The notes under the pieces are model-generated. The model saw nothing but the letters and a program-made list of their open reading frames with translations, did not search any database and had not been told where the DNA came from. The position numbers were made by a program, and so were the translations under genes. From positions 1 through 35,916 of the forward strand of contig CALKLO010000018.1 of the NCBI GenBank assembly GCA_937991945.1: 35,916 nucleotides of DNA. Reading direction: 5' to 3'. The stretch comes from an uncultured Granulosicoccus sp. (GTDB lineage Bacteria; Pseudomonadota; Gammaproteobacteria; Granulosicoccales; Granulosicoccaceae). Position 1 is the first letter of the stretch. Every line of letters begins with the position of its first letter. Positions 1,757-9,967 of the stretch are shown piece after piece.

Positions 1757-4700
1757 ATGCTCTGTCTATCTGGCGAGAATGCCCTTTCCGCGTTCCGGCA
1801 AGACCTCCTGCTGCAACAGCTTCAGGCTCTAGACCCCTCTATCAGCACTGTTGAGGCAAGATTTACCTACTTTGGTGATCTAAATGCCGGTGCGGCTGAG
1901 CTTGATGGGAGTGCCTTAACAAGGCTCTGCTCGCTACTCAATTCCGATGAGCACTACAAGGCGGTGTCTACAGGCTGGCAAATAAGCATTGTGCCCCGAT
2001 TGGGAACGCGCTCAGCATGGTCATCCAAAGCCACCGATATCATCAATCGCTGCGGCATGGACCAAATCAAGCGGGTAGAGCGCGGTGTGCAATATCACGT
2101 CCACTCTACCGACCCGTCAAAATTGAGCGATGAGACTCGTCAGCAAATCATTGCCCAGCTACACGATCGCATGACAGAGGCGGTTATTGAGGTGCCTGAG
2201 CAGCAGCATTTATTGTTTCAGGTGTCAGAACCTGCACCACTGGTATCGGTCAATGTGCTGGAAGAGGGCAAAGCCGCATTAGCCACTCACAACCAGCAAA
2301 TGGGCCTCGCGCTATCATCGGATGAACTGGACTACCTGGAAGCCAGTTTTTCAACGCTTCAGCGCAACCCAAGCGATGCAGAGCTCATGATGTTTGCTCA
2401 GGCAAACTCGGAACACTGCCGCCACAAAATATTCAATGCCGATTGGACGCTTGATGGAGAGGTGCAAGAGCACTCTCTATTCGGCATGATTCGGCATACG
2501 CACAAAACATCGCCAGAAGGCGTTTTGTCGGCGTATCACGACAATGCAGCTGTAATAGAAGGCAGCATGGCTCATCGCTGGCTTCCAGGTCCAGATGGCC
2601 ACTACCAGGCCACAGAAGAGCCTGTGCATATCCAAATTAAAGTAGAGACACACAATCACCCTACGGCCATTTCACCGTTTCCTGGTGCTGCAACGGGTTC
2701 CGGTGGCGAGATACGTGACGAAGGCGCTGTTGGTAATGGCTCCAAACCCAAAGCAGGCTTGTGTGGTTTCACCGTGTCCAACTTGTCTATACCCGGTTGG
2801 GAGCAGCCTTGGGAGAGCGTTACGGACAAGCCCGATCGTATAGCCAGTGCATTTGAAATTATGCGCGATGGTCCTATCGGTGCTGCGGCGTTTAACAACG
2901 AATTTGGCAGACCCAACCTTGGTGGCTACTTTCGAACCTTCTGCCAATCAGTGCCTGCTCAAAATGGTGCCACTGAGGTGCGCGGTTATCACAAGCCCAT
3001 CATGATTGCGGGTGGAATGGGCAACATTCGCGCAGGCAACATCGATAAGCAAGCAGTGCCTGTCGGTACTGCCATTGTTGTATTGGGTGGCCCTTCCATG
3101 TTGATTGGTTTAGGTGGCGGTGCCGCCTCATCGGTAGCAAGTGGCGAAGGCGATAGCGAACTGGACTTTGCCTCTGTGCAACGCGGCAACCCTGAAATGC
3201 AACGCCGTTGTCAGGAAGTCATTGACCGATGCATAGCGCTGGGCGACGACAGCCCTATCTTATCTATTCATGATGTTGGCGCAGGTGGTTTGTCTAACGC
3301 ATTGCCAGAGCTTATCAATGATGCACAACGAGGCGGTGAGTTTGAACTGCGGACCATACTCAACGATGAGCCGGGTATGTCACCCATGGCAATCTGGAGC
3401 AACGAGTCACAAGAGCGCTACGTTATGGCAGTCTCTCAAGACAAGCTTGCGCAGTTTGAATCTCTTTGTCATCGAGAACGATGCCTTTATGCAGTAGTAG
3501 GTACGGCCACTGAAGAGCGCGTGCTGAAAGTATCCGATGAGGTATTTGGCAATCATCCTGTCGATATGCCGTTGGATGTTCTACTAGGAAAACCGCCTAA
3601 AGTATCGATCAATGCCGTGCATGTGAAGAGTGAGGGCGATGATTTAGACACCTCGGCGTTGAGTCTTGATGAAGTATCTGCACGTGTTTTGAATCTGCCT
3701 TCAGTGGCTGCAAAGAACTTTCTTATCACTATCGGCGATAGAAGTATTACCGGTCAAGTGGTTCGAGATCAAATGGTAGGGCCATGGCAAATGCCGGTGT
3801 CAGATGTTGCAGTAACTGCGGCGGACTACACAGGCTATACCGGAGAGGCAATGGCAATGGGTGAACGTTCACCGTTGGCCATTCTCGACGCGGCAGCATC
3901 TGCGCGAATGGCAGTGGCTGAATCTTTGACCAACATGGCAGCAGCCGACGTTGGTGATATCTCAAGAGTAAAGCTATCAGCAAACTGGATGGCAGCAGCG
4001 GGTCACCCAGGTGAAGACGCAGCACTTTATGATGCCGTTAAGGCGGTAGGGTTAGAGCTAGCGCCTGCGTTAGGCATTGCTATTCCTGTCGGCAAAGATT
4101 CACTATCCATGAAAACGGTATGGAACACTGATGCAGGGGAGCAACAAGTGACGGCCCCTGTCTCGTTAGTGGTAACCGCTTTTGCAGCCGTGTGTGATGT
4201 GCGTAAAACGCTAACTCCTGAGCTTCGATCAGATTGCGGCGATACCGATTTACTGCTTATTGATTTAGGTGCAGGTAAGAACCGACTGGGTGGCTCAGCC
4301 TTGGCTCAAGTGTACGAGCGTATGGGTAGACAGGTGCCAGACTTGGACAGCCCTGAACTGCTGAAAGGATTGTTTAACGCACTACAAACGCTGATTAATG
4401 CGAAGACTGTTCTCGCGTGGCACGATCGCTCTGACGGTGGTTTGTTTACAACGCTTGCAGAAATGGCTTTCGCTGGCAACACCGGTTTAAAGATTGATCT
4501 ATCGAGTTTGCCTAGCGATCATATTGCAACGTTGTTTAATGAAGAGTTGGGCGGCGTCCTGCAAATACGCTCTCATCAATACGCGCAAGTCATGGCCGTA
4601 TTCGAAGAACATGGCTTAGGTGATGTTGTTCATCTTGTGGGTTCGTTAACCGATACGCTCAATATAGAAATTTGGCGCAGTGGTGAAATGGAATTCAGTC

Positions 4701-5653
4701 AATCACTCACCTCGCTTCGCCAACAGTGGTGGCAGACGAGTTACCAAATGCAACGCTTAAGAGATAACCCAGATGCTGCTGATCAAGAGCTTGCGCATAT
4801 TTCTCGAAGCGATGATCCGGGTATCTCCCCACGTTTGACGTTTGATCCGGCAAGTTCGCTCATCGAATCAGCTCCGCAAGTGCTTGCTCATAGACCTAAA
4901 ATTGCCATTCTGCGAGAGCAGGGAGTCAATGGGCATATAGAGATGGCGGCAGCGTTCGACCGTGCCGGTTTCGATGCAGTGGATGTTCACATGAGCGATT
5001 TGTTCGAAGGGCGTCATACGCTGGCAGACTTCAAAGGCCTTGCTGCATGCGGTGGATTCTCTTTCGGTGATGTGCTCGGTGCGGGTGGTGGTTGGGCTAA
5101 TTCAATTTTGTTTAGCGAATCAATGTCAGACATGTTCCAAACATTTTTTCATCGTGAAGATGCCTTTGCATTAGGTGTATGCAACGGTTGCCAAATGATG
5201 TCACAGCTTAAAAGTTTAATACCCGGTGCTGATCAATGGCCTCGTTTCGAACGCAATGAGTCCGAGCAGTTTGAAGCTCGCGTGGCAACGGTTGAAATTT
5301 ACGAATCCCCGTCGTTGTTCTTTACTGACATGGCTGGCTCGCGTATTCCCGTCGTCTTGGCGCACGGTGAGGGACGAGCGGTATTCGACACGCCTGAGCT
5401 TGCGCAGAGTGCGCCGGTATCCATGGGCTACGTCGACAACAATGGCAACCTGACCGAGTCTTACCCATTGAATCCTAATGGGTCGGCATTTGGTGTCACA
5501 GGCCTTTGCAACGACGACGGTCGTGTCACCATCATGATGCCGCATCCTGAGCGGGTATTTCGCACAGTGACCAACTCATGGGCACCGGCTGAATGGGGCG
5601 AGAATGGACCTTGGCTTCGCATGTTCGAAAATGCCCGAATTTGGGTTGGCTAG
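1757..5653 (+). CDS. purL: Phosphoribosylformylglycinamidine synthase
   Basis: PurL converts FGAR, glutamine and ATP into FGAM in de novo purine synthesis in the cytoplasm. The 1298 residues match the large fused form typical of Gammaproteobacteria. An N-terminal PurS-like region is followed by a linker, two AIRS-type synthetase halves (with [13 protein letters not shown] near residue 215 and the [20 protein letters not shown] substrate region), and a C-terminal class I glutaminase domain from about residue 1050. The nucleophile is Cys1142 in GVCNGCQ, and the His-Glu pair lies in [10 protein letters not shown] near the end. The ATG at 1757 follows a modest AGAG site and gives an N-terminus like E. 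coli PurL (ENALSAFR). It is divergent from ssrA. I see no convincing PurR operator upstream. Confidence 0.98.
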
Positions 5654-6609: not shown

Positions 6610-8661
6610 TTAGGCAATTTGCAGGTGTTCAACAATAGCGTGAATATCTAGCTCGTTTTCAGCTGCTGTATTACTTGCATCTAACAACCACTGCAATGTC
6701 TCTGAGATTTGCTCACGGCTTATCTCGCCAGATTCTAACTGTTGGTTGATTTGGCTGCGTGTGTCGTCCACTTGTGCTTCAACGACCACATCGTCTCGAG
6801 ACTTGCCTGAAAAGCTGGATAAAACCATAGCAGGCGTTTTGTCTGCATGGTTCTCTACGATGCCGTAGGTGTTGCGCCACTCGTTGAGTTTGCTAGCAAT
6901 TTGTAGCGCGTGTTCCAGTAGTGAATGCACGCTCTTGTTTTGCCAACGTGTACCTACTGTACCTAAAAGGCGGCGGCATCCATCGGCAGCGTTTTGCAGT
7001 GTGTCGAGTTCTACGCAGTAGCTTGATCTGAAGCCCGGCCAGTTGCTAACAATTTGCGCAGCAATGGTTTCTGATTCAAGTACCATAGCCAATTCGCGTG
7101 CATAGTCACTAGTTTGGTTGAGCACTGCCCAGTCGGTCCGTAAACCTTTATAGCCAGGCCCGAGCGCTGCGCGATATTCAGTGTTGTTAACAAACAGTTC
7201 GCGAAACCGTAAAACCTTCACCAATTGTGACAGCATGCGCTTATGGTTAGCTGTAAGATTGCTCGGCTTTTGTATGCTGAATTCCATGAACTGACGTCGT
7301 GCACTGAAATAATCAGCATCCACAAAGTCGTTTTCCATCTCTACGGTGCCACCCAGTTCCGTCATAAGGCTGAGCAGTTGAGACTTGGCAGGGACTTTGT
7401 CCAGTACAAAATGCTCTTGCAGGGCAGCTAGCTCATCTTCAATTAATTTTGATTGGTGTTCGGCACGTCTTAGCAGCAAAGCGCTATTGGCGTAGCACAA
7501 ATCACCATGACCTAATTGGTCTAAAGAATTCGGTGCTTTGTCGATCAACTCGATAATGCTAGAAAGTCGAATGAGTTCGCGCGCTGACATCTGGGGTATA
7601 TCAAGATGTGTATTGATCGCTTTGGTTTCTAGCCCGACGCGAACTGCGTCAACCCATTTTTGGATCATGGCGGGTAAGGCGACCAACTGACGAAACTCAA
7701 CATGGTCGAGTCCTTCTGCAGCTAAACGAGCGGCATATTTTCGAAGGCTCGCAACGCTTTCAGTCTGATTGGGGTTTTGGCTTTCAGAGCGTGTTGTAGG
7801 TTTTGATGTTGCGTAGTTAGGTATGAGTTGCAGTACGGCATTCAGTTGTAACAAGCTTTTGTTATTGGCAATGCTCATAGCCAGCGCTATATCGAAATGC
7901 TCTGGCACATCGGGCAAGTCAACTTTGCCGGACTCACTGTTTTCTTGGTGCAGTAAAGAGGCGCTACCTAGTGCGATATCGAATTCGAGTTCCAACGTTT
8001 TAGAACTGCGGATTGAGGCTGCGACGCTTGCAAAATAATCGCTCAACGGTACGGCGTTTTCATGGGGCGCTATCGTTACATCAAATCGTTGTTCTGCGTG
8101 TTCAGCAAACGCTAAGTTGAATTCCGGGTTGTCGTCGGCAATACGAATCTCGTAACGTGTTTCGTCGGGCACCCTGACTAACAATGCCGGGTAGAGAAGA
8201 AGGGGGGCGCGTCTGCGGGAACCTTCGACGTCAGAGGTGTCTTGCCAGCTAACAAAGCCTGCTGCAAGATATAACTGTCTATCACCCTTAGACTTGATGA
8301 GTGCATTCTCAACAAGATTTTTCTTACACTGCCTCATTAGCTCGTCAGCATCGTGACGCGTTAATAGGTTCGAACGGCCGTGTGTGACGCGCTTCGCATT
8401 TTTCGGCGAATGGCTATCGTTTTGTCTGCGGTTTAGCGGCGCAACATTGGTTGGTTCTGCAGCATTTGCACTGGGTATTAAATCTAAAATGCCACCTTGT
8501 TTCGACAAGACGCCGCTGAGAGCCAAGGGCGAGTGCGGATACAGCTCGATATCAGAATCTAGTGATCCCCAATCGAGCGCGCGCTTATCGCCTTGAGTAA
8601 TAGCATCGGACCTGCGCCGCGCATGCTTAGGGTTTGATTGATTTCCTTGAAGGACTTCCAC
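6610..8661 (-). CDS. DUF4011-like domain protein without helicase domain
   Basis: I recognise only one region in these 683 residues. About residues 100-240 read like the DUF4011 domain found at the N-terminus of very large superfamily 1 helicase proteins. Key stretches are QLYLAAGFVSWQD (129-141), RRAPLLLYPALLVR (150-163), DDNPEFNLAFAE (176-187), LSDYF and FDIALGSASLL. The first 95 residues are polar and basic, probably disordered. The remaining 440 residues appear mostly helical, and I see no Walker A/B or other helicase motifs and no nuclease motif. No signal peptide is evident. The start is a GTG at 8661 with no strong ribosome site, so a later start is possible. It converges on the HAD gene with a 12-base gap. 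The function is unknown; a link to nucleic-acid processing is only suggested by the domain's usual company. Confidence 0.65.
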   Translation of the reverse strand: MEVLQGNQSNPKHARRRSDAITQGDKRALDWGSLDSDIELYPHSPLALSGVLSKQGGILDLIPSANAAEPTNVAPLNRRQNDSHSPKNAKRVTHGRSNLLTRHDADELMRQCKKNLVENALIKSKGDRQLYLAAGFVSWQDTSDVEGSRRRAPLLLYPALLVRVPDETRYEIRIADDNPEFNLAFAEHAEQRFDVTIAPHENAVPLSDYFASVAASIRSSKTLELEFDIALGSASLLHQENSESGKVDLPDVPEHFDIALAMSIANNKSLLQLNAVLQLIPNYATSKPTTRSESQNPNQTESVASLRKYAARLAAEGLDHVEFRQLVALPAMIQKWVDAVRVGLETKAINTHLDIPQMSARELIRLSSIIELIDKAPNSLDQLGHGDLCYANSALLLRRAEHQSKLIEDELAALQEHFVLDKVPAKSQLLSLMTELGGTVEMENDFVDADYFSARRQFMEFSIQKPSNLTANHKRMLSQLVKVLRFRELFVNNTEYRAALGPGYKGLRTDWAVLNQTSDYARELAMVLESETIAAQIVSNWPGFRSSYCVELDTLQNAADGCRRLLGTVGTRWQNKSVHSLLEHALQIASKLNEWRNTYGIVENHADKTPAMVLSSFSGKSRDDVVVEAQVDDTRSQINQQLESGEISREQISETLQWLLDASNTAAENELDIHAIVEHLQIA

Positions 8662-8765
8662 GAGAATATCGAATGCCTTAAATGGTTAGGAATAGGCCAG
8701 CTGTGCGACCGAGATAACCTAGTGATTCAGGAATCGGGCCAAACGGACCGGCAGAACCGTCAACT

Positions 8766-8779
8766 AACTTGATCAAGTT
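8766..8779. repeat. Perfect 14-base palindrome
   Basis: AACTTGATCAAGTT is a perfect palindrome 72 bases upstream of the msrP -35 element and 105 bases upstream of the DUF4011-like start. It could be a regulator site. No regulator can be named from the sequence. Confidence 0.5.
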
Positions 8780-8850
8780 CGTTTATTAGCTACTAAAGTT
8801 AATAGCTGTAAAAGAGCGAATTGGCAAATACTTGCGTAAAAATTGCTAGC

Positions 8851-8878
8851 TTGACAATGTTGCGGAATTCTTTATCTT
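8851..8878 (+). promoter_or_regulatory. Sigma-70 promoter for msrPQ
   Basis: A consensus TTGACA (8851-8856) is followed after 16 bases by TATCTT (8873-8878). The start would be near 8885, leaving a leader of about 105 bases before the msrP ATG at 8990. Confidence 0.65.
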
Positions 8879-8989
8879 TTCTACGGTCCTATTTCATAAG
8901 GCTGGCGAATGGTGAGGTGGATCGTTTGATAAAAGCGTCCAACGTTCTAATCCATCCGTATTTTTAATAAATTGCAGAGAGAAATAAGT

Positions 8990-9967
8990 ATGCGTGACTG
9001 GATGAAAATGGCGGGAATTCGGAGTAGCGAAATCACCGACCAAAACCTGTTTAAACGCAGGCGTCAATTCCTTCAAGCCTCTGCAGCTGCTGGCGTTACA
9101 GGCGCAATTGCATTACCAAACTCAGCGTATGCCGAGACACGCGGTGAGGCGCTGCCTGAACCCATCGTTAAGAGCCCCTTTAGTACAACTGATGAACTCA
9201 GCTCCCACGAGACCATCACCACGTACAATAATTTCTATGAGTTAGGTACCGACAAGGGTGACCCTGCCCGTTATGGCAGCCGATTAAAAACTGAGCCGTG
9301 GAGTTTGACGATAGACGGTGAGTGCGATAACCCAGGTGTCTATACCTTAGAGGACATCCTAAAACCTCACGCTATGGAAGAACGCATTTATCGTATGCGC
9401 TGCGTAGAGGCATGGTCCATGGTTATTCCTTGGAACGGTTTTGCTTTGGCTGATGTCATCAAGCGAATGAAACCTAATTCAAAGGCAAAATACGTTGCGT
9501 TCGAAACGGTTGTACAAGATGACCTACCAGGTGTGCAAAGAAACGTTCTAGAATGGCCGTACAGAGAAGGCCTGCGTATGGACGAGGCGATGAACCCGTT
9601 AACAATGCTATCAGTAGGCTTATACGGTGAAGAGCTTCTGGGGCAGAGTGGAGCGCCGATTCGTTTGGTGGTGCCATGGAAATACGGTTACAAGAGCATT
9701 AAATCTATTGTGCGTATCAGTTTTGTAGAAGAGCAACCCGACACCAGTTGGAATATGTCGTCTCCTCGTGAATACGGTTTCTACAGTAATGTGAATCCAG
9801 AGCGAAGTCATCCGCGCTGGAGTCAGGCAAAAGAGCGTCGCCTTGCCGGTTCTACCAGTGGTTTATCTGCGCTGTTCACATCTAAAACGGAGACGCAGTT
9901 TATGAATGGTTACGCCGAGCAAGTTGCCAGCTTGTACGACGGTATGGATCTACAGACTAACCACTAA
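8990..9967 (+). CDS. msrP: Periplasmic methionine sulfoxide reductase, catalytic subunit
   Basis: MsrP (formerly YedY) is a molybdopterin enzyme of the sulfite-oxidase fold that reduces oxidised methionines in periplasmic proteins, fed with electrons by MsrQ. The 325-residue protein starts with a twin-arginine signal (KRRRQFLQ, residues 22-29, hydrophobic stretch, likely cleavage after AYA at 48). It matches the E. coli protein throughout: TTYNNFYELG, ERIYRMRCVEAWSM with the molybdenum ligand Cys138, VVPWKYGYKSIKSI, EYGFYSNVNP and a C-terminal QVASLYDGMDL. The ATG at 8990 is preceded by GAGAGA at a good distance, and an in-frame TTG at 8972 is not needed. msrQ follows after 5 bases. Confidence 0.97.
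   Translation: MRDWMKMAGIRSSEITDQNLFKRRRQFLQASAAAGVTGAIALPNSAYAETRGEALPEPIVKSPFSTTDELSSHETITTYNNFYELGTDKGDPARYGSRLKTEPWSLTIDGECDNPGVYTLEDILKPHAMEERIYRMRCVEAWSMVIPWNGFALADVIKRMKPNSKAKYVAFETVVQDDLPGVQRNVLEWPYREGLRMDEAMNPLTMLSVGLYGEELLGQSGAPIRLVVPWKYGYKSIKSIVRISFVEEQPDTSWNMSSPREYGFYSNVNPERSHPRWSQAKERRLAGSTSGLSALFTSKTETQFMNGYAEQVASLYDGMDLQTNH

Follow-up and report, generated by a model that had tools for sequence, protein, structure and literature searches.

DUF4011 is listed by Pfam as a domain of unknown function, and a gene of an uncultured Granulosicoccus raises the question of what such a domain does in a protein of 683 residues in which an earlier note on the sequence had seen neither an ATPase nor a nuclease motif. 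That note left a choice between a stand-alone version with a new role and the remains of a larger protein. The window analysed here is an entire contig (35,916 bases); the genome it belongs to spans 3.83 Mb over 158 contigs and is 97% complete. The gene and its parts are as follows, with the long DUF4011 helicase L033 as reference.

6610..8661, minus strand: stand-alone DUF4011-stalk gene, an open reading frame with a GTG start encoding 683 aa, with relatives in 45 of the order's 48 genomes
7963..8661, minus strand: N-terminal region and DUF4011 domain, residues 1-233 (Pfam match at 72-187; alignment with the helicase N-terminus confident at about 91-237)
7903..7962, minus strand: junction region, about residues 234-253 (position approximate), the place of the Walker A segment in helicases, from residue pairing with L033
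7450..7902, minus strand: residues 254-404, with a stalk alignment of low confidence at 254-360 and fair confidence at 361-404
7117..7449, minus strand: stalk core, residues 405-515, the best conserved of six family segments, from segment identities, conserved residues, a match to L033 786-903 and a confident alignment
6613..7116, minus strand: C-terminal part, residues 516-683, with low-scoring matches and low alignment confidence; helicase counterpart unsure beyond about residue 540

The DUF4011-like domain that had been placed at about residues 100-240 was recovered by two routes: Pfam DUF4011 (PF13195) matches residues 72-187 (8.2e-14; 52.3 bits, above the gathering cut-off of 22.2), the best stretch covering profile positions 49-156 of 158 and leaving the first third unmatched, and helicases were matched by the family profile over about residues 90-233. 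Besides DUF4011, no Pfam family, and hence no AAA family and no MTES_1575 nuclease, was found for the protein at E up to 10 with the usual HMMER filters, and the P-loop pattern G....GK[ST] occurs in none of the 28 family members examined, which bears out the reported lack of ATPase and nuclease motifs. A search for relatives of solved structure gave none that is credible, the best (E 0.045) being a leucine-rich protein. DUF4011 is weak in some members, since L060 has no Pfam match and L059 scores 20.6 bits in one profile search and 23.3 in another; the PF13195 match is missing in 2 of the 45 gene-bearing genomes (G025, G028). The relative L002, which is 81% identical to the window protein, was found by exact peptide patterns and was the sole relative in the genome-contig scan.

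The rest of the protein had been described as a helical tail of 440 residues. Alignment of the family (27 of 29 input rows used; two rows come from the same contig) with nine helicases by hhalign gave one alignment of 670 columns (P 5.9e-19). Read residue by residue, it pairs residue 237 with residue 286 of L033 and residue 238 with residue 490, so that the stretch carrying Walker A (L033 372) is a gap, and it stops at L033 1071, ahead of motif II (L033 1303). Mean alignment confidence is 5-9 at residues 91-240 and 361-540, 0.5-3 at residues 241-360, and mostly 1-2 beyond residue 540 (4.7 for 631-660), which makes DUF4011 and the stalk core secure and the other tail parts insecure. Judged from this alignment, residues of about 91-237 and 361-540 can confidently be regarded as homologous to two parts of Hhe-type helicase-nucleases, the DUF4011 domain and the helical stalk, respectively, and residues 241-360 and 541-683, placed with low confidence, may be something other than stalk. 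The order, DUF4011 followed by stalk, is that of the helicase, in which the two flank Walker A; the 683-aa protein has no counterpart of Walker A, motif II or the nuclease. With HMMER, DUF4011 was found in all 18 long helicases (16 from one profile search and two from another) and a separate stalk match after Walker A in ten of them, with none in the other eight; one helicase profile search gave matches in 19 of 20 stretches, L103 having none though the class-sample search had matched it. In NCBIfam, residues 236-519 match positions 582-870 of Hhe, and residues 44-233 match positions 392-587 of ProA. The description of the tail thus stands for residues 361-540, by homology, whereas the helical character of residues 240-683 as a whole is seen in low-confidence predicted models only (two-row inputs; pLDDT 33 for the whole protein and 52 for residues 385-545). 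A hidden helicase core in the C-terminal part was rejected, as residues 361-540 are stalk and neither a P-loop nor a nuclease was found, though residues 541-683 are unplaced; neither a lack of DUF4011 match nor such a core, the two outcomes named in the earlier note as speaking against it, was thus found.

Among named systems, the gene resembles Hhe (NCBIfam NF042953, DUF4011 domain-containing anti-phage protein) in having DUF4011 and a helical stalk in the same order, and the stalk that Hhe bears between motifs I and II is present, by homology, at residues 361-540. Its score against the Hhe model, 60.2 bits, is below the equivalog cut-off of 2000. Hhe-type relatives of 1709, 1740 and 1826 aa match this model over nearly its full length and carry AAA_11, AAA_12 and MTES_1575, whereas the 683-aa protein does not match in this way and lacks all three domains. 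The long relatives L095, L090 and L033 score 2096.5 (which passes 2000), 1899.9 and 1483.5 bits, respectively; DUF4011, AAA_11 and MTES_1575 were found by Pfam in these three and in L096, AAA_12 being above cut-off in three of the four and below it in L033. L096 (2824-9192) encodes a DUF4011 helicase-nuclease of 2122 aa that ends in a C-terminal GreA/GreB domain. The likeness to ProA (NCBIfam NF058533, anti-phage protein) amounts to 71 bits, below the equivalog cut-off of 1500, and the gene differs in having no helicase or nuclease. In the PADLOC candidate PDC-S37, positions 51-228 of 1550 are matched by the best stretch, residues 52-232, and a second matching stretch was also counted; the protein is less than half as long as this profile. 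Utp25, described as a eukaryotic pseudohelicase (PMC9539457), is helicase-like and comparable by analogy only. The excerpts available of five further papers place a large DUF4011 gene among the core genes that flank a defence hotspot in P. aeruginosa (PMC10250203), count Hhe among the SF1/SF2 defence helicases (PMC12278908), name it in a list (PMC11291487), name an hhe deletion strain (PMC9391042) or describe MTES_1575 domains with no mention of DUF4011 (PMC3710099); these excerpts assign no role to DUF4011 or to the long helicase stalk. By title, no report of a stand-alone form was found in the open-access literature searched.

The gene was detected by the family profile in 45 of the 48 genomes of the order, all of which carry the same family code, and is split across two contigs in G004. 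In the three genomes without it (G003, G007, G022), neither msrP nor purL, both found near the gene in the window, is matched either, so the locus is probably unassembled there; a tie between the gene and msrP drawn from this joint absence was rejected, purL being missing as well. Of the 369 genomes of the class sample, 18 gave a match, four of these belonging to the family. Outside the family there are 18 matched places: 16 in frames of at least 1540 aa, one cut by a contig end (G388) and one in a DUF4011 protein of 333 aa that has no stalk match. In the phylum sample, in which at most two candidates were scored per genome and which overlaps with the class sample, 42 of 398 genomes match, our own included; none of the 43 other places matched past model position 237, 40 lying in frames of at least 1543 aa and three in frames of 906-1052 aa. 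The motorless form was thus found outside the family in none of the 369 class and 398 phylum genomes (overlapping samples, the three frames of 906-1052 aa left out). A side observation is L094 (2951-3952), which encodes a second, different stand-alone DUF4011 protein of 333 aa that matches neither stalk nor helicase; a type I restriction HsdR-like gene and a pair of AAA and subtilase genes lie nearby.

In the tree, a branch with support of 100/97 parts the 28 family rows from 18 helicases and the 333-aa protein; the rows are full length for the family and DUF4011 only for the helicases, most of which fill about one quarter of the columns, and L060 forms a long branch. Left out were L002 (same contig as L042), two short tandem paralogues, L109 (a contig-cut, stalk-only paralogue), L108 (a contig-cut frame with DUF4011) and L103. 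As DUF4011 is above cut-off in the Thermotoga and Methanosarcina controls and the motorless form was seen only in the family, the simplest reading is that the short form is derived. We infer a change by loss rather than gain, and regard it as probable that the gene is a vertically inherited, ATPase-free derivative of Hhe that serves the Granulosicoccus family as a core gene for a non-enzymatic binding or adaptor protein. The ancestor would have been a DUF4011 SF1 helicase-nuclease of the Hhe type, which would have lost the nuclease, the Walker A-bearing RecA-1A segment and the whole part from motif II onward, so that the remaining DUF4011, joined to the helical stalk, would form a binding or adaptor protein devoid of enzyme activity.

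A shortened gene could also be the decaying debris of a helicase gene. The protein is indeed most simply a truncated Hhe-type helicase, as both sides of Walker A match, and the weak DUF4011 of some members would fit decay, so that "remains of a larger protein" was apt as to origin. It is not debris, however, as the family retains it, almost always at the same locus, and it is under purifying selection in the measurable pairs; the suggestion of a stand-alone protein with a new role likewise holds in part. The best match is free of internal stops in 44 of the 45 genomes, the exception being G028, where a TAA closes the open reading frame about four codons before the match ends, and the family forms one old clade. 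By a simple counting method, omega is 0.042, 0.094 and 0.123 in the three of nine pairs with measurable dS, dS being saturated in the other six, and for these three pairs the gene is under purifying selection, by which decay, in our view a highly improbable explanation, is already largely refuted. Judged by identity, the evolution of the gene is faster than that of msrP in eight of the nine pairs and roughly as fast as that of msrQ.

If the gene is a maintained derivative of Hhe, the distribution of constraint may point to the part that works. Among family pairs with a DUF4011 identity of 0.35-0.45 (114 of 378), mean identity is 0.676 in the stalk core and 0.389 in DUF4011; among helicase pairs in the same bin (18 of 36), it is 0.236 in the stalk core, 0.388 in DUF4011 and 0.734 in the RecA 1A segment, with even lower values for the stalk parts flanking the core (0.133 and 0.152). 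Family and helicases thus rank the two domains in opposite order, the constraint on the stalk core setting the 683-aa protein apart from Hhe-type helicases, with the caveats that the helicase stalk aligns poorly and that DUF4011 may be relaxing in the family, which alone would widen the contrast. Residues conserved in at least 85% of rows include R399, R455, R456, K482, R485, R487, G501, G506, T509 and W511; the basic ones are accompanied by conserved acidic residues (E408, E410, E488, E495), which we count against a binding reading. The stalks of SF1 helicases contact nucleic acid or partners. In our reading, the stalk core would contact a partner, either nucleic acid or protein, and DUF4011 would provide a second contact, the protein thus presumably acting through binding and having no enzymatic activity. 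That the stalk core, highly variable in the motor protein, is the best preserved part in the family points to a new job. A further step, to which we give somewhat less than an even chance, is a single domestication of a defence helicase in the family's ancestor, in which motor and nuclease were deleted and the variable stalk of the parent became the working site of a core, non-immune cellular function.

A protein that shares DUF4011 and stalk with Hhe might instead regulate a full-length Hhe-type helicase in trans, or act as its dominant-negative partner, in defence. Such a partner would have to be present, and a long DUF4011 helicase frame does accompany the gene in five of the 48 genomes; in a sixth (G059) there is one that is probably cut by the contig end, and in G030 a DUF4011 match lies in a frame of 710 aa. 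No long or contig-cut DUF4011 helicase was seen, however, in at least 38 of the 45 gene-bearing genomes. The trans-acting helicase that the earlier note had proposed to look for was not found in our own genome by the profiles used: there is no second DUF4011 match, no AAA_11 match above cut-off (two lie below, at 18.7 and 17.2 bits) and no MTES_1575 match at E up to 0.01. As the gene is also surrounded mostly by housekeeping genes, we consider regulation in trans distinctly unlikely.

The features of the surrounding locus that bear on function are the following.

1757..5653, plus strand: purL (FGAR amidotransferase; Pfam), on the other side of the gene, past a HAD-type gene
8662..8971, no strand: divergent intergenic region of 310 bases common to the gene and msrP, with promoter-like sites at shuffle level
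8972..9967, plus strand: msrP, the adjoining divergent neighbour (NCBIfam MsrP, 437.8 bits, cut-off 207)

The neighbours in the window with Pfam matches are mostly housekeeping genes, SMC and LigA were recognized by NCBIfam, and a tmRNA is present, so that the context lends no support to the link with defence raised in the earlier note. This bears on the view that the gene is a stand-alone anti-phage protein retained as core immunity, for which one can cite that its relatives are named anti-phage proteins, that PDC-S37 matches residues 52-232 and that, in the excerpt of PMC10250203, a large DUF4011 gene is core by a defence hotspot of P. aeruginosa. Yet Pfam detects no effector domain, and the gene is nearly universal and syntenic in the family, whereas defence genes are typically patchy; plasmid and phage records gave no match, nor did viral contigs with a single short peptide pattern as query. 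An anti-phage role is, on balance, unlikely. The exception among the mostly housekeeping neighbours is an AbiEi-type antitoxin/regulator (AbiEi_3) next to the tmRNA gene, at the edge of the contig (window 10-855 and 1169-1541, both minus strand); no relative was found in the other stretches, most of which do not extend that far, and its toxin partner, if any, may lie past the contig end.

Conserved neighbours were sought at 28 loci, namely the window and 27 from other genomes, several of whose stretches stop at a contig edge. When frames below 150 aa are ignored, msrP adjoins divergently at 25 loci, and purL is within the same stretch at 21; the 3' side of the gene differs between loci and no conserved operon partner was seen among the 28. 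At L049, L050 and L051, a related gene pair on the same strand follows immediately downstream, which in L049 comprises a molybdopterin-like protein and a hybrid histidine kinase. The adjacency would suit a partner of the divergent msrP/msrQ, for example in the response to oxidative methionine damage. Of the 48 genomes, 41 have an msrP match. Against a partnership, the genus g6 (G031, G034), G006 and G061 keep the gene without an msrP match (in G031 and G034, the gene and purL are on different contigs), and promoter-like sites in the shared region are at shuffle level; we hold a partnership with msrP/msrQ to be very unlikely.

With a derivative of Hhe as the probable origin, a marine bacterial family would keep a shortened relative of an anti-virus DNA motor protein as an ordinary chromosomal gene, which suggests that immune helicases can be domesticated. 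A DUF4011-stalk protein without motor and nuclease that is under selection across the family also makes the role of these parts directly testable.

Three minor observations concern individual genomes. G031 carries, in tandem with the gene, a complete stalk-only paralogue of 354 aa without a DUF4011 match (L056 10028-11092). In G028, two contig-cut, nearly alike stalk-only pieces without a DUF4011 match (L060 8654-9766; L109 1-1158) may be one gene. L059 (8299-11031) contains a frame of 910 aa that fuses a Clp-type AAA_2 ATPase and a PCRF release-factor domain.
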